Below are positions 2,393 through 16,093 of a stretch of DNA of 64,000 nt, in pieces. The notes beneath the pieces are model-generated. The model worked only from the letters and a program-made list of their open reading frames with translations. It did not search any database and was not told the DNA's origin. The position numbers were made by a program, and so were the translations under genes. Numbering within the stretch: position 1 is the stretch's first letter; each line of letters opens with the position of its first letter. Source of the stretch: Hyphomonas sp. L-53-1-40 (lineage in GTDB: Bacteria > Pseudomonadota > Alphaproteobacteria > Caulobacterales > Hyphomonadaceae); contig NZ_AWFI01000019.1 of NCBI RefSeq assembly GCF_000682775.1, forward strand, positions 62,001 to 126,000. Direction: 5' to 3'.

Positions 2393-4006
2393 ATGACGCG
2401 GGCGGCAATCTATGTGCGGGTTTCAACAGGGAAACAGGCCGCCGGTGAACTCTCCATCCCCGATCAGGTTCGCCAATGTGAGGCTTATGCCGAGCAGAAC
2501 GGCTACGAGGTCGTCAAAGTCTATACCGATGCCGGGGTAAGTGCCCGCACTGACAAGCGGCCTCAGTTTCAGGAAATGATTTCTCGTGCCGTTGCGCCGG
2601 ATCACCCCTTCGATGCCATCCTTGTTCATAGTCAGTCCCGCCTGTTCCGAAATACGAAAGACCTGTTGGTCTATCGCTCGCTTCTGGATGAACGGCACGT
2701 CCGGTTCGTTTCGATCACGCAGGATCTGGGCGAAGGTGAAACGGCAGACATTCTGACGACAATGGTTGGCGCGCTGGATGAGTACCAGAGCAAGGAAACC
2801 GCCAAGCACGTCGCTCGGTCCATGATCGAGAATGCCAAGCAAGGATTCTGGAATGGAGCCGCTGCGCCATTAGGGTTCCGCACCTATGCCGCCGAAACGC
2901 GCGGCGCGCGGATCAAAAAGAAGATCGAGATCGACCCCGAAGAGGCTGAGACTGTCCGGTTGATCTTCAAACTCTACGTCATGGGCGATGGCACGTCCGG
3001 TCCGATGGGGGTGAAGCGGATTACGACTTACCTGAATGTGCAAGGCTTCGTAAATCGTCAGGGCAAGCCGTTCCGGGTTCAGTTCATCGACAAGATTCTG
3101 AGAAACACGGCATACATTGGCGAGCACTACTTCAACCGGACGGACTCGCGCCGGAAGACACCACGCCCTCGCGAAGAATGGGTTCTCTTCCCGATGCCGC
3201 GCATTGTGGAGGATGTCCTGTTCTATGAGGCGCAGGAAAAGCTGGATCGCCAGCATCCGATGAAGACCGCTCCAAGGCTGGTTTCGAGCGACGTGCTTCT
3301 GACCGCTTTGGCAGTTTGTGAAGAATGCGGAGCACCTATGCGCAAGCTCTCCGGCAAGAGCGGGCAGTATCACTATTACCGTTGTTCTCGGAAAGCCGAT
3401 GCCGGGCAAGCAGCCTGCAAGGGCGTGTCGATCCCGATGCAGGAACTGGATGATATTGTTATCGATGCGCTGGAAGGCTCAATCCTTGAACCGAAGCGCC
3501 TTCGCAAGATGACGGAAATGCTGCTTGCCCGTGCTCAGGAGCGGGGACGCTCTGCAAAAGAGCGGCGCAAAAAGCTGGATGGCGAGAAGCGGAAAGCTGA
3601 GGCCCAGGTCACGAACCTCTACACGATGGTTGGCACTGGCGAGTTGTCGATGGATGGCACCTTGTCGGCACACATCCGCGAACAACAGGATAAAGTTGAG
3701 CGTCTGAAACGGCAGATTGCGCTGCTGGATCGGGATCGGAGTGCGCCTGTCGATAAGCTTGGCGACAAGGTTGTTGAGAAGTTCGGGAATGCTGTGTCGC
3801 AGGCTCTCAGAAATCCGGACAATCGCCAGTTTGCCAAAGCCTATGTCCGCACACTCGTCAGCAAGATCGAGGTTGGCGAAAAACAGATCAGAATCAGCGG
3901 ATCAAAGGATGCCATCGCCCATCAGGCTATGTCTTTTTCTGCCAGCGGGGAATTAGTGCCTGCTTTTGCACAGGAATGGCGCACCCAAGAGGATTCGAAC
4001 CTCTGA
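2393..4006 (+). CDS. Large serine recombinase (site-specific integrase)
   Basis: A 537-residue large serine recombinase. The N-terminal resolvase domain (residues about 4-150) has the nucleophile in YVRVSTGKQ (Ser11). A recombinase domain follows, then a zinc ribbon around residues 305-345 (CEECG and a later Cys pair) and a coiled-coil stretch around 375-430. It catalyses integration and excision of the element through a phosphoserine intermediate. ATG 2393 follows GGAGGGG. The last ten codons (WRTQEDSNL and TGA) are supplied by the 3' end of the antisense tRNA-Arg gene, which marks the element boundary and probable att site. Confidence 0.93.
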   Translation: MTRAAIYVRVSTGKQAAGELSIPDQVRQCEAYAEQNGYEVVKVYTDAGVSARTDKRPQFQEMISRAVAPDHPFDAILVHSQSRLFRNTKDLLVYRSLLDERHVRFVSITQDLGEGETADILTTMVGALDEYQSKETAKHVARSMIENAKQGFWNGAAAPLGFRTYAAETRGARIKKKIEIDPEEAETVRLIFKLYVMGDGTSGPMGVKRITTYLNVQGFVNRQGKPFRVQFIDKILRNTAYIGEHYFNRTDSRRKTPRPREEWVLFPMPRIVEDVLFYEAQEKLDRQHPMKTAPRLVSSDVLLTALAVCEECGAPMRKLSGKSGQYHYYRCSRKADAGQAACKGVSIPMQELDDIVIDALEGSILEPKRLRKMTEMLLARAQERGRSAKERRKKLDGEKRKAEAQVTNLYTMVGTGELSMDGTLSAHIREQQDKVERLKRQIALLDRDRSAPVDKLGDKVVEKFGNAVSQALRNPDNRQFAKAYVRTLVSKIEVGEKQIRISGSKDAIAHQAMSFSASGELVPAFAQEWRTQEDSNL

Positions 4007-8544: not shown

Positions 8545-8620
<76 letters not shown>

Positions 8621-8726: not shown

Positions 8727-9701
8727 ATGGCGACAATACGTAAACGTGCCAATCGCTGGCAGGTTCAGGTGAGGCGAAAGAACGCCCCAAACATATCCAG
8801 AAGCTTCGTGAAGAAGGCTGACGCCGATACCTGGGCGAGATCAATGGAGGTGGAAGCTGATCGCCGAACCCTCAAGCATGACCCCCGCCTTCTCGATGAA
8901 CTCACATTGGGGGATCTCGTCACCCGCTATCGCGACACGGTCTGTCAGGCAAAGAAGGGAGCTGAAGTTGAAACCTTCCTGCTGAACGCCTTTCTAGGAC
9001 AATCCCTGAACCACAAATCCCTATCATCAATCTCAGTGTCGGACTTTGCAGCTTACCGAGACGAGCGCTTGAAGACGATCAGCGCATCCGGGTTCAATCG
9101 TGAGCTTGCGCCCCTCCAGCACATGTTTTCGATTGCGCGATCCGAGTGGGGTATCCCTATTCTGGAGAACCCTGTCGCCCTGCTTCGCAAACCGCAGAAC
9201 AATCCTCCACGCGAGAGAAGGTTTAGGTCTGGCGAGTACGCCGCGCTGCTTGAGGCAGCAGACCAAACGAAGAACAAATATCTCAAGCCATCTATCATCA
9301 TTGCCGTTGAGACTTCGATGCGACGTGGAGAGATATTGAACGTGAGACAAAGGGATTTTGGCGAGGCGCTGAGGACGCTCAGGATTCCGGTCACCAAGAC
9401 GGGCAGGGCAAGGTCCATATCCCTCTCAGAAGGCGCTGTAGGGGCCTTTGGGAGTCTTCTGGAGGCATTCTCGGTAGAGCACGGCGCCCCGATCATCCCG
9501 ATCACTCCAAATGCGTTCCGATTGTCGTGGGAGCGAACCGTAAGACGAGCGAAATTGGATGATCTCCACTTTCACGACTTAAGACATGAAGCCATCTCGC
9601 GCCTATTTGAGAAAGGTCTGTCGATGCCTGCAGTCGCAGCAATCTCGGGGCACAGGGACTATCGTATGCTAGCCCGATACAGTCATGTGAGTTCTGGCTG
9701 A
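8727..9701 (+). CDS. Tyrosine recombinase/integrase of the tRNA-Val element
   Basis: A 324-residue phage-type integrase. It has an N-terminal arm-binding-like segment (residues 1-60), a SAM-like core-binding domain (about 65-165) and a catalytic domain with Arg in TSMRRGEIL, the HDLRHEA box, a His in GHRDY and the nucleophilic Tyr in MLARYSHV. It sits 107 bp from the tRNA 3' end, the standard position. It catalyses insertion into and excision from tRNA-Val. Its last 19 bases overlap the convergent membrane-protein gene. Confidence 0.95.
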   Translation: MATIRKRANRWQVQVRRKNAPNISRSFVKKADADTWARSMEVEADRRTLKHDPRLLDELTLGDLVTRYRDTVCQAKKGAEVETFLLNAFLGQSLNHKSLSSISVSDFAAYRDERLKTISASGFNRELAPLQHMFSIARSEWGIPILENPVALLRKPQNNPPRERRFRSGEYAALLEAADQTKNKYLKPSIIIAVETSMRRGEILNVRQRDFGEALRTLRIPVTKTGRARSISLSEGAVGAFGSLLEAFSVEHGAPIIPITPNAFRLSWERTVRRAKLDDLHFHDLRHEAISRLFEKGLSMPAVAAISGHRDYRMLARYSHVSSG

Positions 9702-10204
9702 TGTGACATGTCTTTTCGTTGAAGCAATTGGATCAAGGGTTCGTTCGCGATCACATACTCCTTAGACAGCTTCCTTATGAGCGCGTGGTAGGAATCGAAG
9801 GTGCTCTTGTAGGCCTGCCAAAACCCATCTTTCCGACGTTGTGCCGATGCCCAGACCGCACCGAAGTTACGAAGATTACTTTCGTAGGATTCGAACATTT
9901 GGTTCAGTTCTATGGGAAGGGAGTCGCGGTCGTTGAGCATGTTCCTCAGAGTCACAACTCTTTCAAAGTATAGACCGATCATCCAGACTTCTCGGTAACC
10001 GGTTTCCGACCATTCCTTCGTAGCTCTTCGATACATCTCGCGCTGTATGTTGGTCAGCTCTTCGAGCACGCGCTTCTTTTCTCGTTTGCCGATCTCTCTG
10101 CGAGAGAAGACCATGCCGATCATCAAGAAGATGACGGCCAGCGCAAACTCCCAGATATAGGGCCCAAAGGTCGCGAGGCGGGCCATCCATTCTGCTTGTG
10201 TCAT
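9683..10204 (-). CDS. Small membrane-anchored protein of the tRNA-Val element
   Basis: A 173-residue protein. One N-terminal membrane segment (residues about 13-35, YIWEFALAVIFLMIGMVFS) is followed by a Lys/Arg/Glu-rich stretch likely to be coiled coil, then a helical cytoplasmic region with many Arg, Trp and Tyr. ATG 10204 is preferred because GGGGAAAC lies upstream. It is convergent with int and overlaps its 3' end. No family is recognised; a single-span sensor or effector is one possibility. Confidence 0.6.
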   Translation of the reverse strand: MTQAEWMARLATFGPYIWEFALAVIFLMIGMVFSRREIGKREKKRVLEELTNIQREMYRRATKEWSETGYREVWMIGLYFERVVTLRNMLNDRDSLPIELNQMFESYESNLRNFGAVWASAQRRKDGFWQAYKSTFDSYHALIRKLSKEYVIANEPLIQLLQRKDMSHQPELT

Positions 10205-10302
10205 GTTCGTTTCCCCAACCAACTCAATAAGCGCCCATCTTGAGAGCGCATCGATTGACCGTACAGGAATCAGTCATGACATCAACGAGAAGGTGATTTT
10301 CC

Positions 10303-10331
10303 TTGACAAATTCGACCTTTTGTGATACAAT
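10303..10331 (+). promoter_or_regulatory. Strong sigma-70-type promoter for the polymerase gene
   Basis: TTGACA (10303-10308), a 17-bp spacer and TACAAT (10326-10331); TATAAT overlaps at 10331-10336. Transcription would begin near 10338, leaving a leader of about 180 nt before the ATG at 10520. The rest of the 315-bp gap (10205-10519) is AT-rich and holds no gene that I can see. Confidence 0.7.
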
Positions 10332-10519
10332 ATAATTTCAGATTGGGATTGCGTCTCAGGCAAAATTGGCCTCTCCGCATTGCTCTAGTCGATTCAAAAA
10401 AATGAATTTTTCAAATATTGGGCGTCGTCTTCGTCGTGTCTTTTGATACGTCGATATAGACCCCCTATCACCTCCAAAAATAGGACCCCGGACAACGGGG
10501 CCAGAAAGTAGATTTGTCC

Positions 10520-12190
10520 ATGCAAAATGGAAAGAGAACGAGAGAAGATTTTACGAACAAGATATATGTAGACCTCAACTTAGTGACTTCAGACCCACTG
10601 GTTGAGTTGATCGCCTCAAAGCTAATCGAAATCGCATTGTCTACCGCTCGGCCACGCACAAGATCCGCCACAAAAGAGCAGACAAAAAAAGCGATCCGAT
10701 CCCTACTAGCAAACCTGTTTCGAACCCGATGGACTGGCGACGCATTGATTGCCATCTCATTGATGAAGAAAAATTACTCACCTGCGAAAAGGTTCGGCAT
10801 TGGCTACGAAGCCATTACACGGGCGATCCATTTGTTGGTGACACCCCAGGTGGTGAATGGTCATGAACTGGAACCACTAGTGACCAAATACAAGGGCTTT
10901 CGAAGTCCTGACGGTTACATGGACAATACGAAGCTCAAGCTCAGAGATGAATCTGTGATCGAATGGATTCGCTTGTTGAAGGTTGGAACTAAATACGATT
11001 CCATCGACCCTGCTTCTATCCTTCTTGTTCCTACAAGTTCTTCTGCCTACTCAAAGGAAGTTGAAGGTTTAAAAGATAAAAGAATTACGCCTATAACTAG
11101 TACGCTAAACTCAGTGTTCAGATCGAACATTCAGTCTGCTCCTATCTGCCTGCTTGATGATCACAGACAACAGGTCGAGTTTGATCGCTCCGACGAAACA
11201 GACCGGATGTCAAAGTTGGTGTCTACCTACAATCGCCATTTGGACCAGCATAGGGTCGGGCTGTTCATAAGTGATGCTGAAATCGCCTCAGTCCTTAGAA
11301 CGACACAGGAAAAGCTCGCGGAACGAAAGCGCGCCGGAGACTACACGCACACGATGTCCCAGATTATGGGATGGCAGGCGAACAAGCTGCATCGCGTATT
11401 CAATCGAAGTAGCTTCGAGTGCGGTGGGCGGCACTATGGCGGTTTCTGGCAAAATCTTCCAAAGCTCTATCGGCCGTTCTTGACGATTAATGGACACCCG
11501 ACCGTGGAGCTAGACTTTCACGCCCTGCACCCGACGATGATCTATCATCAACACGGTCTGACTTTGGACGGCGATCCATATGAAGTTGAAGGACTGCCAA
11601 GCGAGTATCGCACATCTGCAAAAAAAGCTCTGATGGCATTGGTCAATGCAAAGCCAGGCGCCCGTCATCTGGAATCATTAGATCATCTATCACTGCCAGC
11701 AGAATGGACACCAGTGCGACTCATAAGGGCTCTTGAGAAGAAGCATGAAGCCATAGCCGACAGTTTTCGCAGTGATGCGGGAGTGAAACTTCAAAGACTT
11801 GATTCTGATATTGCGGAAATCATTATGCGAACAATGCGGGATCAACATAGAGCGCTGGCTTTGCCCGTGCATGACAGCTTCATCGTGACAGAGGATCAGG
11901 GGGCGAATCTCAATTCTAGCATGTTTGACGCGTATAAGACCGTGATAGGGTGTGAGGACATTAAGGTCGACTGCAAGGCTACACTCTTTGACTATTGGCA
12001 AGATCTTTTGGAGTTGAGTGCCGAGGCCAAACTAATTAGGTCGATTGAAGCGAACGTGGATATCGGTTGGTCCGCCAAGGCGAGAGAGAAAATATTTAAG
12101 TCGCATAGCATTTCATCAAATTATACTTGGTATCTGCGTCACCTTTCGGGCTGCATTGAGCAGCCAGGTCGTCGTGCTATGAGTTCGTAA
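10520..12190 (+). CDS. Family-A-like DNA polymerase palm protein
   Basis: A 556-residue protein. Its C-terminal half has the three polymerase motifs in order. Motif A is VELDFHALHP (Asp332) and motif B is RTSAKKALMALVNA (Arg364, Lys368/369). Motif C is ALPVHDSFIV (His451-Asp452, compare HDE in Pol I). There is no 3'-5' or 5'-3' exonuclease motif, and the N-terminal 250 residues match nothing I know. It is therefore probably a template-directed nucleotide polymerase of unknown template. TTG 10514 is an alternative start. The thymidylate-synthase-like gene follows after 107 bp on the same strand. Similar proteins occur in proteobacterial islands without an assigned role, as far as I recall. Confidence 0.65.
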   Translation: MQNGKRTREDFTNKIYVDLNLVTSDPLVELIASKLIEIALSTARPRTRSATKEQTKKAIRSLLANLFRTRWTGDALIAISLMKKNYSPAKRFGIGYEAITRAIHLLVTPQVVNGHELEPLVTKYKGFRSPDGYMDNTKLKLRDESVIEWIRLLKVGTKYDSIDPASILLVPTSSSAYSKEVEGLKDKRITPITSTLNSVFRSNIQSAPICLLDDHRQQVEFDRSDETDRMSKLVSTYNRHLDQHRVGLFISDAEIASVLRTTQEKLAERKRAGDYTHTMSQIMGWQANKLHRVFNRSSFECGGRHYGGFWQNLPKLYRPFLTINGHPTVELDFHALHPTMIYHQHGLTLDGDPYEVEGLPSEYRTSAKKALMALVNAKPGARHLESLDHLSLPAEWTPVRLIRALEKKHEAIADSFRSDAGVKLQRLDSDIAEIIMRTMRDQHRALALPVHDSFIVTEDQGANLNSSMFDAYKTVIGCEDIKVDCKATLFDYWQDLLELSAEAKLIRSIEANVDIGWSAKAREKIFKSHSISSNYTWYLRHLSGCIEQPGRRAMSS

Positions 12191-12297
12191 ACATAGAAAA
12201 TTTGGCCGCCAAATAAGATTGAGAGCCGTATTGTTGGTTCAAGTCACGAATCCTAGGGGAATTTTGAACTGGCGAACGATAATTGGAGCGCAGATAG

Positions 12298-13251
12298 ATG
12301 TACATCAACAAAGAAACCTTGGATGATTTGCTGCGGGCCGTTCTTACTGAGCTTCTTGCAAATGGCAGCCCGATAGATCCAACTCGGGCGCCTGCCGTGG
12401 AATTGGCAGGTGTCCTGCTTGAGATAGGGAATCCTCGGGCGCGTCTGAGCAGAACTGAAACTAAAGGGAAGGCGATTAGCTGTGTGGGCGAATTGCTTTG
12501 GTACTTGTCAGGTTCCGATAGTGCTGAGCACATTCGATACTACATACCGCTGTATGCTGAAGAATCAGAGGATGGAGAAACGATATACGGCGCGTATGGT
12601 CCTAGGTTGCTCAATTGGCATGGTCAGAACCAACTACAGAACGTCATAAATTTGTTGAAGGTGACGCCGAACACAAGACGAGCTGTAATTCAGATCTTCG
12701 ATGCTCTAGACATTGGGGAGCGCTCGACTCGGCGAAAGGAGATTCCTTGCACTTGCATGCTCCAGTTCTTGTTAAGAGACAATCAGCTTCAACTGATCGT
12801 CAACATGCGTTCGAACGACGCTCACCTTGGTCTAGCGCACGACGTGTTCGCTTTCACAATGCTCCAAGAAATAGTCGCACGATCTCTAGGTGTTGAAATT
12901 GGAACCTACAAGCACTTCGTGGGAAGCCTTCATTTGTATAATCGAGATCGCGCGAAGGCAGAAAAATTCCTATCAGAAGGGTTCCAGCCTACCAATATTC
13001 CAATGCCCGAAATGCCGAGCGGTGATCCATGGGACTCTATAGAAAAAATGTTGCGCGTTGAGCAATCGTTGCGGTCAAATGAAAAGTGCAATCTGAGCGA
13101 TTTCGATCTTCCTCTTTACTGGCAAGATTTGGCTAGATTGTTGGCGATCTTCGCAGCTAGTAGGGCCGCTGACGCTGGCGAAGCACAGAAGAACGCACTG
13201 GAAATAGGGGATCCGGCATATAAAATTTATATTGAATCGAGAGTCAAATAG
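12298..13251 (+). CDS. Thymidylate-synthase-fold enzyme, probable dCMP/dUMP hydroxymethylase
   Basis: A 317-residue protein of the ThyA superfamily. Conserved positions are Glu65 in GELLWYL, Tyr97-Gly98, Arg127-Arg128, catalytic Cys151 in PCTCMLQF, NMRSND (Arg171, Asp174) and His212/Tyr214 in GSLHLYNRD. Where ThyA has Asn177, which reads uracil, this protein has Asp182. T4 dCMP hydroxymethylase also has Asp there and shares the NMRSND signature. A dCMP hydroxymethylase or methylase is thus more likely than a housekeeping ThyA. The C-terminal 100 residues diverge from ThyA. GGAG precedes ATG 12298. Confidence 0.75.
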   Translation: MYINKETLDDLLRAVLTELLANGSPIDPTRAPAVELAGVLLEIGNPRARLSRTETKGKAISCVGELLWYLSGSDSAEHIRYYIPLYAEESEDGETIYGAYGPRLLNWHGQNQLQNVINLLKVTPNTRRAVIQIFDALDIGERSTRRKEIPCTCMLQFLLRDNQLQLIVNMRSNDAHLGLAHDVFAFTMLQEIVARSLGVEIGTYKHFVGSLHLYNRDRAKAEKFLSEGFQPTNIPMPEMPSGDPWDSIEKMLRVEQSLRSNEKCNLSDFDLPLYWQDLARLLAIFAASRAADAGEAQKNALEIGDPAYKIYIESRVK

Positions 13252-13320
13252 CAGCGTAAGTTGAATCGAAATCTGGTAGAGCGGGCCAAAGCGCCAACTG
13301 CCCTGAATGAAAGTGATTTG

Positions 13321-14247
13321 ATGATTCGACCGAAACAAATTGCGCATGCAGCCGCGCTGAACTCGGCCCTACAGAAATATTCCGCGCAGATATTCCCGCT
13401 GCCTGGGGTCGATGATCCTGTACGGCGAAACGTCTTGGTCGCGCAGATATTGGAAAGCATTCGACGAATCGAATACGTCAAAGCTATCGCTTCCCGACCG
13501 ATAGATCCTGATCGAGCGGACCCAAAGAGTGATTTATTCGACCCGCTGAAAGCAGCGCTTCTGTGCATGCGCGCGGGAGACCGAGACGAAGCGTTTTGGT
13601 TGATCTTTTTAGCAACGCATTTTAGCAAGCATGCTGTCGATGGTTGGGGGTTGATGAGAGCAGTATACGGACGGCTGGGTACGAACCCTTATTGGAGTTG
13701 GGCCGAGATTTGCAGTGACTTGAGCGGCTTTAGACTGTGGCTTCGCGCCAACCAAACGGGGCTTTCGCACCTTCGGTTTGGCAATCACAGAAAGTATGAA
13801 AGCAAGAGAGAGAACAGTCCGAAAGGTTTGGCTGCCGTTGTGGAAAGCTACGTGGCATGGGTCGGCCCGCCCGGAACACACGATCAACGCTTTACCGGCA
13901 TCATAGGCCATACCAATGACCCCACAGTCGCTTTTGAACAACTCTATCAGTCGGTATCGTCTATTACTCGTTGGGGGCGACTGGGGGCTTTTGATCACCT
14001 TACTATGATCGGAAAGCTAGGCCTGCTGCACATCGAACCGGGCAGGACCTTTCTTAAAGGCGCCACCGGACCTAGGGCAGGCACAGCACTTTTGCTCAAC
14101 GGCGATGCTGCGGCTAAACTAGATGTCAAGCACGCGGAAGCGGAGCTTATAAAATTAGGAACCAAGCTATCAGTAGGCCAACAAGTGCTCGAAGATTCAC
14201 TCTGCAATTGGCAGAAGAGCCCATCAGTATTCGTGGCGTTTCGCTAG
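13321..14247 (+). CDS. Alpha-glutamyl/putrescinyl thymine pyrophosphorylase-like protein (clade 3 type)
   Basis: A 308-residue protein (ATG 13321; TTG 13261 would add 20 residues). Landmarks are FDPLKAALLCMRAGDRDEAF, FLATHFSKH, GWGLMRAVYGRLG, RFGNHRKYES and VVESYVAWVGPPG. From memory these match proteins annotated as aGPT-Pplase clade 3, the family proposed by Iyer, Aravind and colleagues to activate 5-hydroxymethylpyrimidines in DNA by pyrophosphorylation before hypermodification. The neighbouring hydroxymethylase-like gene, 69 bp upstream, supports this. Activity is inferred. It ends with a 4-bp overlap against the convergent HTH-ImmA gene. Confidence 0.55.
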   Translation: MIRPKQIAHAAALNSALQKYSAQIFPLPGVDDPVRRNVLVAQILESIRRIEYVKAIASRPIDPDRADPKSDLFDPLKAALLCMRAGDRDEAFWLIFLATHFSKHAVDGWGLMRAVYGRLGTNPYWSWAEICSDLSGFRLWLRANQTGLSHLRFGNHRKYESKRENSPKGLAAVVESYVAWVGPPGTHDQRFTGIIGHTNDPTVAFEQLYQSVSSITRWGRLGAFDHLTMIGKLGLLHIEPGRTFLKGATGPRAGTALLLNGDAAAKLDVKHAEAELIKLGTKLSVGQQVLEDSLCNWQKSPSVFVAFR

Positions 14248-15344
14248 AAGGCCAAGGCCAGTTGATCCCAATTGAACCTTCGTTTGAGTGAATTCAGCTG
14301 ATTGGGACGTAAACATCCAGCATGCTGAAGTTGGCCCACTACAATTCCTGGAGAAATTCCAATCTTTAGTGCAAATCGCACAATGGATCTGAAATTGGAG
14401 GGGAGCGATTCCATTTCTGGGACATATTGGGTCGGAACCAGTACGTTCCTAGAGAAATCATTTGCTTCTTGCTCTTCCTGACCAGTCACCTCGCTTCCAT
14501 CTTCAATGAAAAGAGCGCGCTTGTCGTGCAGTATTAGATGTGCGGCTTCGTGGAAGAACGTGAACCAAAAGTGATCGTCTGACAGATATCGGAAGCTCAA
14601 TACGATCATAGCCTTGTCGGCGTTGATAAACTGAGTAGCGCCACTAGCGCGGCAGCCCTTTGGGGCGCGAACAAACACTACAGCGACCCCGCACTCCGCA
14701 CAAAGTTTGATTAGCTTTGGCAGGAAGGCCGCAGGGTCTTTCATTTTAGCAAATGCCCGCATCGCCGTGAGGTTAGAGACAAATTTGTCCTTGTCCCAAG
14801 ATCCGCAACGTACGAGCGTAGCAGCTCTCTCAGCCTGCCTTAGCCATACCAATGTACTATTAGGCTCACTGGAATAGGTAGGAGATTGCCGGAAGGCTAC
14901 GGCCTTTTCTTTGGCTTCATATTTCGCAGACCAATCGTCGATCCCAGATATGTCGAAGAATTGTAGAATAGAGCTAAGATCATTTGATGCGGTTGGTAGC
15001 CAACCATGTTTTTTCATCTCTTTAATTGGAAGATTTGAAAGGAACGCATCCGCTTGTTGCTCCTTAATTTGGTTCGCGCAGCGCTGAAGATCTGAATCGA
15101 AATCCTTTTGTCGCTGGAGCCAAAACGCCGGTGATGAACCAATATGTTTTGAAAGAGTGGAAGCAATATCAGCGTCAATTTTAAGCTGGCCTTGAAGCAG
15201 ATCCCTAGTGCGTTTTTGATTCCAGCTTGCGAGGTCCGAGAAGTCGTTAATGTCTAATTCTCGACGTTGCAGAACAGCGTTTATGGTGATGCCCGGATGA
15301 GAAAACCAATCGGGAGCGAATGTCGAAGGGTCAGACAGCATCAT
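14244..15344 (-). CDS. HTH-domain protein fused to ImmA/IrrE metallopeptidase
   Basis: A 366-residue protein. Residues about 15-90 are a HigA-like XRE DNA-binding domain (LQRRELDINDFSDLASW ... LSKHIGSSPAFWLQRQKDF). The C-terminal half is an ImmA/IrrE zinc peptidase with HEAAH (His265, Glu266, His269) and a downstream Glu-rich EEQEANDF segment. Such proteins cleave or bind repressors that control mobile elements or DNA-damage responses. The start overlaps the upstream gene by 14 bp, so translation is coupled. It could be the control module of the element, or an antitoxin for its partner. Confidence 0.85.
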   Translation of the reverse strand: MMLSDPSTFAPDWFSHPGITINAVLQRRELDINDFSDLASWNQKRTRDLLQGQLKIDADIASTLSKHIGSSPAFWLQRQKDFDSDLQRCANQIKEQQADAFLSNLPIKEMKKHGWLPTASNDLSSILQFFDISGIDDWSAKYEAKEKAVAFRQSPTYSSEPNSTLVWLRQAERAATLVRCGSWDKDKFVSNLTAMRAFAKMKDPAAFLPKLIKLCAECGVAVVFVRAPKGCRASGATQFINADKAMIVLSFRYLSDDHFWFTFFHEAAHLILHDKRALFIEDGSEVTGQEEQEANDFSRNVLVPTQYVPEMESLPSNFRSIVRFALKIGISPGIVVGQLQHAGCLRPNQLNSLKRRFNWDQLALAF

Positions 15345-15771
15345 TAGTGATTTCCATGATTCGAATTCTCTTCACCTGCGACCAATCGACTCCGGCGACA
15401 TCCTTGTCTCGACTGTGATTGCTCGAAAATACGATACTACCAGTGGGCTGCAACATAATGCGAATCACTGCGGGCGAGCCGTTTGTCGCTTGGGCTTGCT
15501 CGCCAAAGAAGAGATCGTCAACGGTTATAGCTGCCCTCATGTCAGCCAATCGAGCTTTGAAGTCGGTTATAACAAGAGGCCCCAATGCAGCTTCGGCGGC
15601 GCTTGAGTGTTCACATATATTTCGCAGCTCCTCCGTTTCCCACGCCAATTCCAATTCAAAAACTCCAATGTCGTCCAAAATGGTCGAGGCTACGAACACC
15701 ATGCAAACGTTAGATATGAGCGTTTTGAACCCCATTGAGTTGAGTTCAGCAACTAAATTCGCCCGGTTCAT
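15331..15771 (-). CDS. Hypothetical protein coupled to the ImmA/IrrE gene
   Basis: A 146-residue soluble protein with no recognised domain. The N-terminal third is hydrophobic (FKTLISNVCMVFVAS) but not a clear membrane span; the rest is acidic, and the C-terminus is beta-rich. It is first in a two-gene minus-strand operon with the HTH-ImmA/IrrE gene, sharing 14 bp with it. The arrangement resembles toxin-antitoxin or effector-regulator pairs, but I cannot assign a function. Two perfect inverted repeats lie just upstream. Confidence 0.55.
   Translation of the reverse strand: MNRANLVAELNSMGFKTLISNVCMVFVASTILDDIGVFELELAWETEELRNICEHSSAAEAALGPLVITDFKARLADMRAAITVDDLFFGEQAQATNGSPAVIRIMLQPTGSIVFSSNHSRDKDVAGVDWSQVKRIRIMEITNDAV

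Positions 15772-16027: not shown

Positions 16028-16093
<66 letters not shown>

Follow-up and report, generated by a model that had tools for sequence, protein, structure and literature searches.

A mobile four-gene unit joining predicted cytosine-modifying enzymes to a toxin-antitoxin-like pair: a candidate anti-phage module on a tRNA-Val island of Hyphomonas

A 64,000-nucleotide stretch of DNA from Hyphomonas sp. L-53-1-40 (contig NZ_AWFI01000019.1, positions 62,001 to 126,000 of the forward strand; hereafter the window, in whose numbering all coordinates are given) carries a 7.5-kb island at an intact tRNA-Val gene, and four of the island's genes form a conserved, mobile unit with the layout TS>aGPT><ImmA<SML. 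These genes are TS, a thymidylate-synthase-fold protein and predicted dCMP 5-hydroxymethylase; AGPT, of the aGPT-Pplase family; IMMA, a HigA-like helix-turn-helix protein with an ImmA/IrrE metallopeptidase domain; and SML, a small RelE/HigB-like protein. On balance we incline to read the unit as a mobile anti-phage module, carried as cargo on a tRNA island that has an integrase and a polymerase-like gene, with cytosine-hypermodification chemistry and toxin-antitoxin (TA)-like control. Taken by itself, a role against phages is likely, and we regard the module as a candidate for it. An initial annotation of this DNA covered positions 10303-14247; two of the four genes (14244-15771) lie outside that segment.

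The unit was delimited by a census in which contigs from one genome per species were scanned with AGPT, the best 80 of 163 relatives were retained, and family profiles were built from these 80 loci. TS lies within 5 kb of AGPT in 79 of the 80, and IMMA does so in all 80, always convergent with it. SML is present in 79 loci, and the exception has 1063 bases left after AGPT, near the contig end. The stop codons of AGPT and IMMA are at most 20 bp apart in 76 loci and overlap in 38. Distances between the proteins also correlate (TS-AGPT 0.73, TS-IMMA 0.78, AGPT-IMMA 0.81), and none of 999 permutations gave values as high, in a comparison that leaves in the shared ancestry of the hosts. No other family is a constant neighbor; the next most frequent are two accessory families (24/80 and 19/80), followed by one in 11/80, which by eye we judged to be integrases. 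The initial annotation had grouped TS and AGPT with the polymerase-like gene preceding them in the window, as a trio whose co-occurrence in other genomes might be surveyed. The link of TS with AGPT holds, but the polymerase-like gene is found in none of the 80 loci, either with profiles or with phmmer over the whole loci (in 10 of these, less than 1.7 kb precedes TS), an outcome that the annotation itself had named as speaking against the trio. The trio also leaves out the constant partners IMMA and SML.

The module is carried by diverse organisms and replicons. Record titles place the loci in Chloroflexi, Acidobacteria, Planctomycetes, Actinobacteria, Verrucomicrobia and Proteobacteria, and some of the genera named are ones that we take to belong to Bacteroidota. 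Among 15 loci from a viral collection (two on one contig), TS is present in 15, IMMA in 14 and SML in 12, with the misses near contig ends. Eight plasmid records contain AGPT, and the three that were inspected have all four genes; a Leptospira plasmid also carries AGPT. Close to home the family is rare: among 101 genomes around the window genome, only the window genome itself has it, and it occurs in 4 of 398 genomes of the phylum, the window genome included. Two of the other three have the whole module, and the third has the divergent AGPT gene described below.

TS (12298-13251, plus strand), the first module gene, matches Pfam PF00303 (E 1.8e-25), and its closest solved relative in a PDB search is the CMP 5-hydroxymethylase MilA (E 2.6e-50). 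Its residues were compared in an alignment of 77 rows, i.e., the window and 76 of the 80 loci; loci without TS, or with split or out-of-length open reading frames (ORFs), were left out. Cys151 (the nucleophile), Tyr100, Ser172, Asp182, His212 and Tyr214 are invariant in all 77 rows. An acidic residue stands three positions before the Cys in 69 rows, and Glu65 is present in 75. Ser172 occupies the place of A176 in MilA, Asp182 that of Asn177 in thymidylate synthase, and Arg127 that of K133 in MilA, with Arg in 71 rows and Lys in six. According to work on MilA and the T4 enzyme, an Asp replacing Asn177 selects cytosine (PMC5175136), while Ser and Arg confer selectivity for deoxyribose, and the water used in hydroxymethylation is activated by the acid before the Cys (PMC5175136, PMC6400193). 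Because Asp182, Ser172, Arg127 and the acid fit these rules, TS is predicted to convert dCMP to 5-hydroxymethyl-dCMP, and we consider this activity highly probable. The residues predict a deoxycytidylate substrate, rather than thymine or uracil. With T4 dCMP hydroxymethylase and MilA, TS shares the catalytic Cys, Glu65, Asp182 and the acid before the Cys; it differs from MilA in its deoxy-type Ser and Arg, and from the T4 enzyme in its setting within a bacterial module.

AGPT (13261-14247, plus strand, with TTG as the given start and an ATG at 13321) is the second module gene and confidently a member of the aGPT-Pplase family, clade 3. It matches PF18746 (aGPT-Pplase3) at E 2.7e-96, with 322.7 bits against a cut-off of 25, and PF18724 (ADDT) with 214.1 bits against 26.2. 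An AlphaFold2 model with a mean pLDDT of 94.3 was compared to viral models (BFVD) by Foldseek. Four matches fall below E 0.001, of which three, including the best (7.2e-5), are unnamed. The amino acid:DNA transferase (AADT) of phage LilMcDreamy is matched at E 1.1e-4 (probability 1.00, TM ~0.5), and weaker rows are the AADTs of phages Fortunato (6.9e-3) and Salmonella 38 (0.088) and a PhiW-14 hmdU-kinase helical-domain protein (0.23). In the comparison with solved structures, nothing beyond weak rows for the 8-oxoguanine glycosylase Pa-AGOG (probability 0.23 and 0.15) pointed to a glycosylase-like fold. Two alignments were made, one having 80 rows with the window included and another having 65 sequences for invariant residues; the latter include Q62, R69, H176, R177, R240, D245, E311, D312 and C315-K319. 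This enzyme could conceivably work through an exocyclic methylene, the chemistry of C5-methyltransferases. A tblastn search of phage records with AGPT gave no match; clade 3 domains have been reported in a paper on Acinetobacter phage SH-Ab15599. From its family and modeled fold, AGPT may make a hypermodified cytosine, a tentative assignment that we would place just short of even. One divergent AGPT gene (L224:1651-2559) lacks TS, IMMA and SML and lies in an apparently ordinary chromosomal setting.

The initial annotation had seen dCMP-hydroxymethylase-type residues in a thymidylate-synthase fold and a resemblance of the next protein to the aGPT enzymes. Both readings stand: AGPT falls within its family, and TS has cytosine-type residues and is not an ordinary ThyA. 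The annotation's appeal to phage thymine hypermodification fares less well, given that Asp182, in all 77 rows, predicts deoxycytidylate.

The third module gene, IMMA (14244-15344, minus strand), overlaps the 3' end of AGPT by 4 bp with its own. The protein matches Pfam M78, the HigA model TIGR02607 (E 4.7e-7, below the model's cut-off) and the PADLOC family PD-Lambda-2_B (E 3.4e-26), and neither its metal-binding HEXXH residues H265, E266 and H269 nor Glu291 vary across the 80 rows of the alignment, window included. The fourth gene, SML (15331-15771, minus strand), is listed with a start that is probably too far upstream, because the part that it has in common with its relatives is approximately 15331-15663. 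The window protein has no family match in Pfam, PHROGs, PADLOC or TIGRFAM-type scans. Its AlphaFold2 model (pLDDT 84.8) has helices and sheets, and among the first 15 Foldseek rows 13 are toxins of ParE, HigB, YoeB, PrpT or RelK type and two are Txp40. We also looked for inverted repeats upstream of SML in 78 loci and dropped the idea: the longest arms averaged 5.65 versus 5.20 in shuffled sequence, and arms of at least 8 occurred in 10% versus 2.5%.

The E. coli system PD-lambda-2 (Vassallo 2022) offers the closest comparison for this pair. It is reported to be a TA-like defense giving abortive protection, where A is HigB-like, B is a HigA-peptidase that is toxic alone and is rescued by A, and C is needed for defense (PMC9519451). 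Like PD-lambda-2, the module has a HigA-like helix-turn-helix domain fused to an ImmA-type peptidase, with a small, putatively HigB-like gene before it. SML followed by IMMA corresponds in order to A followed by B, so that the two may function as A and B do. However, TS and AGPT take the place of the third component, in a convergent layout, and SML lacks a PD-Lambda-2 family match. The seven island proteins, which is where it was sought, include no PADLOC match to the C component. By this analogy, we think that IMMA and SML rather probably act as a TA-like control.

Phage thymidine hypermodification (M6, ViI, phiW-14), which uses hydroxymethylated dU, a 5hmdU DNA kinase and an aGPT-Pplase/AADT enzyme, resembles the module in combining a TS-fold hydroxymethylase with an AADT-fold enzyme. 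The module differs in its cytosine-type residue, its carriage as cargo of a bacterial island, its TA-like pair and the absence of a constant kinase. In the DefensePredictor paper (2026, PMC13092281), aGPT-Pplase is a predicted, unvalidated defense domain, and TS and 5hmdU kinase are among the newly validated ones. No description of a TS-aGPT-ImmA-SML unit was found in the literature searched; the founding aGPT-Pplase papers and the DefensePredictor figures and supplements lie outside that search and may show it.

The four-gene unit with its mobility and spread, the active-site residues and the AADT fold match are computed results, and from them a course of action can be proposed. TS would, judging by its conserved residues, convert dCMP to 5-hydroxymethyl-dCMP. 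Family and fold suggest that AGPT might then put an amine or amino acid in place of the hydroxymethyl group, or derivatize that group with one, without a dedicated kinase, either on the nucleotide or after its incorporation into DNA. The hypermodified cytosine could interfere with phage DNA synthesis or mark DNA for failure. On the model of PD-lambda-2, the HigA-ImmA protein and SML, encoded convergently to the enzyme pair, would sense and control in a TA-like manner: they would hold the module silent and, on infection, release it and possibly their own toxicity. In its most pointed form, the proposal is that phage hypermodification chemistry has been turned into a weapon: upon infection, a peptidase switch would free both enzymes, and amine-substituted cytosine would be loaded into the nucleotide pool or the phage genome. 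We consider this full version possible but doubtful. If true, anti-phage immunity would have an effector principle of a new kind, and the base would be one not seen before in DNA. The unit as delimited here gives definition to what was a loose domain prediction (aGPT-Pplase in defense): four genes in a fixed convergent arrangement, with dCMP and not dUMP as the predicted substrate, a TA-like switch and E. coli copies at hand. The anti-phage use that the initial annotation had suggested, among others, finds its support in context, namely the spread of the module in E. coli near type I restriction genes and the restriction-modification genes on other islands with the polymerase-like gene.

The island that carries the module in the window is delimited by 66-bp direct repeats, identical at both ends. 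The left copy (8555-8620, plus strand), an att site, is the 3' part of a tRNA-Val gene (GAC anticodon; 8545-8619, plus strand, ARAGORN) that is the integration target, and the right copy, likewise an att site, is at 16028-16093 (plus strand). A 59-bp part of the repeat had no matches in shuffled sequence. In two congeneric genomes the left flank passes through the tRNA straight into the right one, the left ending at 3501 and the right beginning at 3443 (L214), or at 3852 and 3794 (L216); because of this, we conclude that the island is a precise insertion. A third congener (L215) has flanks approximately 2.1 kb apart, and so represents neither this island nor a clean empty site. In addition to the module, the island contains a tyrosine integrase (8727-9701, plus strand; PF00589, E 5.9e-22), a polymerase-like gene (10514-12190, plus strand) and, between these two, a gene for a 179-aa protein (9683-10222, minus strand) with a stretch near its N terminus that is hydrophobic by eye and no family at E 0.001 or better in Pfam, PHROGs, PADLOC and TIGRFAM-type scans. 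No phage structural gene was recognized among the seven island ORFs by Pfam and PHROGs scans.

Much of what the initial annotation described here is borne out, namely a 7.5-kb tRNA-Val island without phage structural genes, three plus-strand ORFs (the polymerase-like gene, TS and AGPT) and a promoter-like site ahead of them. This is a sigma-70-like site at 10303-10331 (plus strand) that agrees with the consensus at 11 of 12 bases and has a TG before the second hexamer; in the region as a whole there are three promoter-like sites, fewer than the mean of 6.7 in shuffles. No plus-strand terminator-like site lies between 12190 and 12298. The annotation's family-A-like polymerase palm was based on motifs read by eye, and was not confirmed. 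Nothing significant was found in Pfam, PF00476 included, or in PDB profile searches, and an hhalign comparison with 30 PolA proteins gave E 0.07 and a probability below 1%, although it aligned at motif A. The protein's only family match is phrog_4756, of unknown function (PHROGs). Parts of it, from 31 to 65% of its length, are matched by 257 phage records, and among the 30 phage rows listed every match is called hypothetical.

The polymerase-like gene belongs to the chassis of islands whose cargo varies and is sometimes defensive. Of 385 genomes searched in the class, 24 have the gene, the window genome among them. We studied 16 surrounding stretches (L130-L145) from 15 of these 24 genomes, and aligned 18 of the proteins. 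A tRNA gene is found in 14 of the 16 contexts versus 4 of 16 control stretches from the same genomes, and relatives of the window integrase in 6 of 16 versus none of 16. Repeats of 51-55 bp at tRNAs occur in three contexts, and the cargo includes type I, II and III restriction genes. A wider set of integrase and restriction queries, taken partly from the contexts themselves (cargo picked by eye) and supplemented with E. coli restriction proteins, found integrases in 11, restriction-modification genes in 6 and RNase HI in 3 of the 16 contexts, and none in the 16 controls. With the contexts that donated queries left out, these counts are 8/13, 2/12 and 2/15, respectively. Since they drop, the restriction link is no more than suggestive. 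The window island fits the chassis plan, with the four-gene module in the place of the cargo. More generally, phrog_4756 islands, with their tRNA, integrase, varied cargo and occasional nearby RNase HI, look like a class of mobile element.

The E. coli module was traced by a 3.8-kb stretch that extends from TS to a MazG-like gene beyond SML, and at least 80% of this stretch is present in 226 of 5426 complete E. coli genomes. This MazG-like protein has relatives only in three E. coli loci among 101 loci searched. Type I restriction genes are near all seven E. coli loci inspected, and a dGTPase-family gene is near five of them. The E. coli record examined contains the SML gene (L213:11161-11487, minus strand) without annotating it, so a construct designed from that annotation would lack SML. 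Variable islands house the module in E. coli (L213, L220, L222), and in some strains these islands also carry the resistance genes floR, a frameshifted tet(A) and CTX-M-15.

It is important to consider the points that weigh against reading the unit as an anti-phage module with this chemistry and control. The loci counted were found with AGPT itself and are the best 80 among 163 relatives; the profiles used in the census derive from these loci. Because a divergent lone AGPT gene exists, the enzyme can occur without the module. The E. coli copies represent few independent events, because most are more than 99% identical. PADLOC matches were weakly higher among 110 near neighbors than among 110 far ones, in a count of families and not of proteins, and enrichment of defense genes around the 80 loci was dropped as an argument. 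On the polymerase-like islands, the restriction-modification count of 6/16 used queries from four of those contexts, without which it is 2/12 versus 0/16 in controls. Regarding the chemistry, solved structures give AGPT no significant match, and its terminal E..LC.W part matches phage M6 gp51 weakly (E 0.013, probability 3.4%). A kinase for the pyrophosphate route was not seen as a constant gene in the gaps or within 6 kb at the 80 loci, in an analysis where kinase models were not run on all neighbors and no genome-wide search was made. Since no constant kinase is near the unit, either a host kinase activates the base or AGPT works without pyrophosphate. The sequence of hydroxymethylation and then pyrophosphate activation that the initial annotation had invoked is therefore not what the genes show. 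With respect to control, the fold match of SML is weak (best Foldseek E 0.14). Among 53 SML proteins no toxin-family match was found in PADLOC or above the Pfam cut-offs, one protein being weakly HigB-like at 0.064, and a profile of the 53 has no match to a solved structure (PDB); PADLOC families under the PD-Lambda-2 name match none of them at E 0.1.

Several other explanations deserve consideration. The one that survives best, which we nevertheless think unlikely, is selfish stabilization, in which IMMA and SML are a plain TA pair that holds the island, and TS and AGPT are passengers or makers of a sensed metabolite. HigA-like and RelE-like parts, and carriage on islands, plasmids and viral-collection contigs, are consistent with this explanation. 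However, TS and AGPT equal the TA-like pair in constancy (AGPT by construction), their distances co-vary with it, and a passenger role is disfavored because passengers would often be lost.

Quite improbable, in our estimation, is self-marking, where TS and AGPT would hypermodify host or island DNA, in the manner of restriction-modification or of phages protecting themselves, and IMMA and SML would act when the mark is missing. A precedent for such marking comes from phages with related enzymes, whose own DNA is modified once a hydroxymethylated pyrimidine has been built in (PMC6449724). However, Pfam, PHROGs, PADLOC and TIGRFAM-type scans recognized no DNA nuclease or sequence-specific DNA enzyme among the four genes. 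Moreover, a host whose cytosine is replaced should have to control its dCTP, and a gene for this is not constant; the MazG-like protein of E. coli has relatives only in the three E. coli loci.

That TS serves nucleoside-antibiotic synthesis by supplying a hydroxymethylated nucleotide, the part that MilA plays for mildiomycin, is very improbable: MilA is indeed its nearest solved relative, but Ser172 (77/77) and Arg127 (71/77) fit deoxy-preferring enzymes, unlike MilA, and no other biosynthetic gene recurs constantly in the unit. Finally, the proposal of the initial annotation that the polymerase-like protein, TS and AGPT make or incorporate a modified nucleotide for island replication, which the shared strand and single upstream promoter-like site might favor, is largely refuted and hardly credible, because the polymerase-like gene is a marker of tRNA islands whose cargo varies, is in none of the 80 module loci and has unrelated cargo beside it on other islands.

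Modules elsewhere have accessory genes of three families, of which the window has none. The first, of approximately 265 aa, is in 24 of 80 loci (e.g., L034:9204-10004 and L002:9189-10007), and of the first 23 found, 22 are between TS and AGPT. It has no Pfam match (three members scanned), no PADLOC match (one scanned) and no PDB profile match. Its GLNPS stretch resembles a UDG motif; a UDG identity found no support in PDB profiles or in hhalign against 30 UDG proteins of two motif types. This motif likeness and the shared theme of modified cytosine are the likenesses of these modules to the defense Brig1, whereas the lack of profile or PDB support for the UDG link, and of this accessory gene in the window, sets them apart. 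Brig1 itself is an antiviral glycosylase of the UDG superfamily that acts on modified cytosine (PMC11078745).

A second family, of 125 aa, immediately precedes SML on the same strand in 14 of 101 loci searched, namely 7 of the 80 from genomes, 6 of the 15 from the viral collection and 1 of the 3 from plasmids (e.g., L068:12411-12788 and, on the minus strand, L123:10458-10871). By eye it is MazG-like; searches of six genomes with PF03819 and PF12643 gave no match placeable there, and the name was dropped. The third family is DUF4031-like (Pfam E 4.8e-27 for the member tested) and approximately 100 aa long. It is found next to the module or inside it in 19 of 80 loci (e.g., L035:8501-8803 and L043:8884-9189), 10 of which also have the ~265-aa gene.

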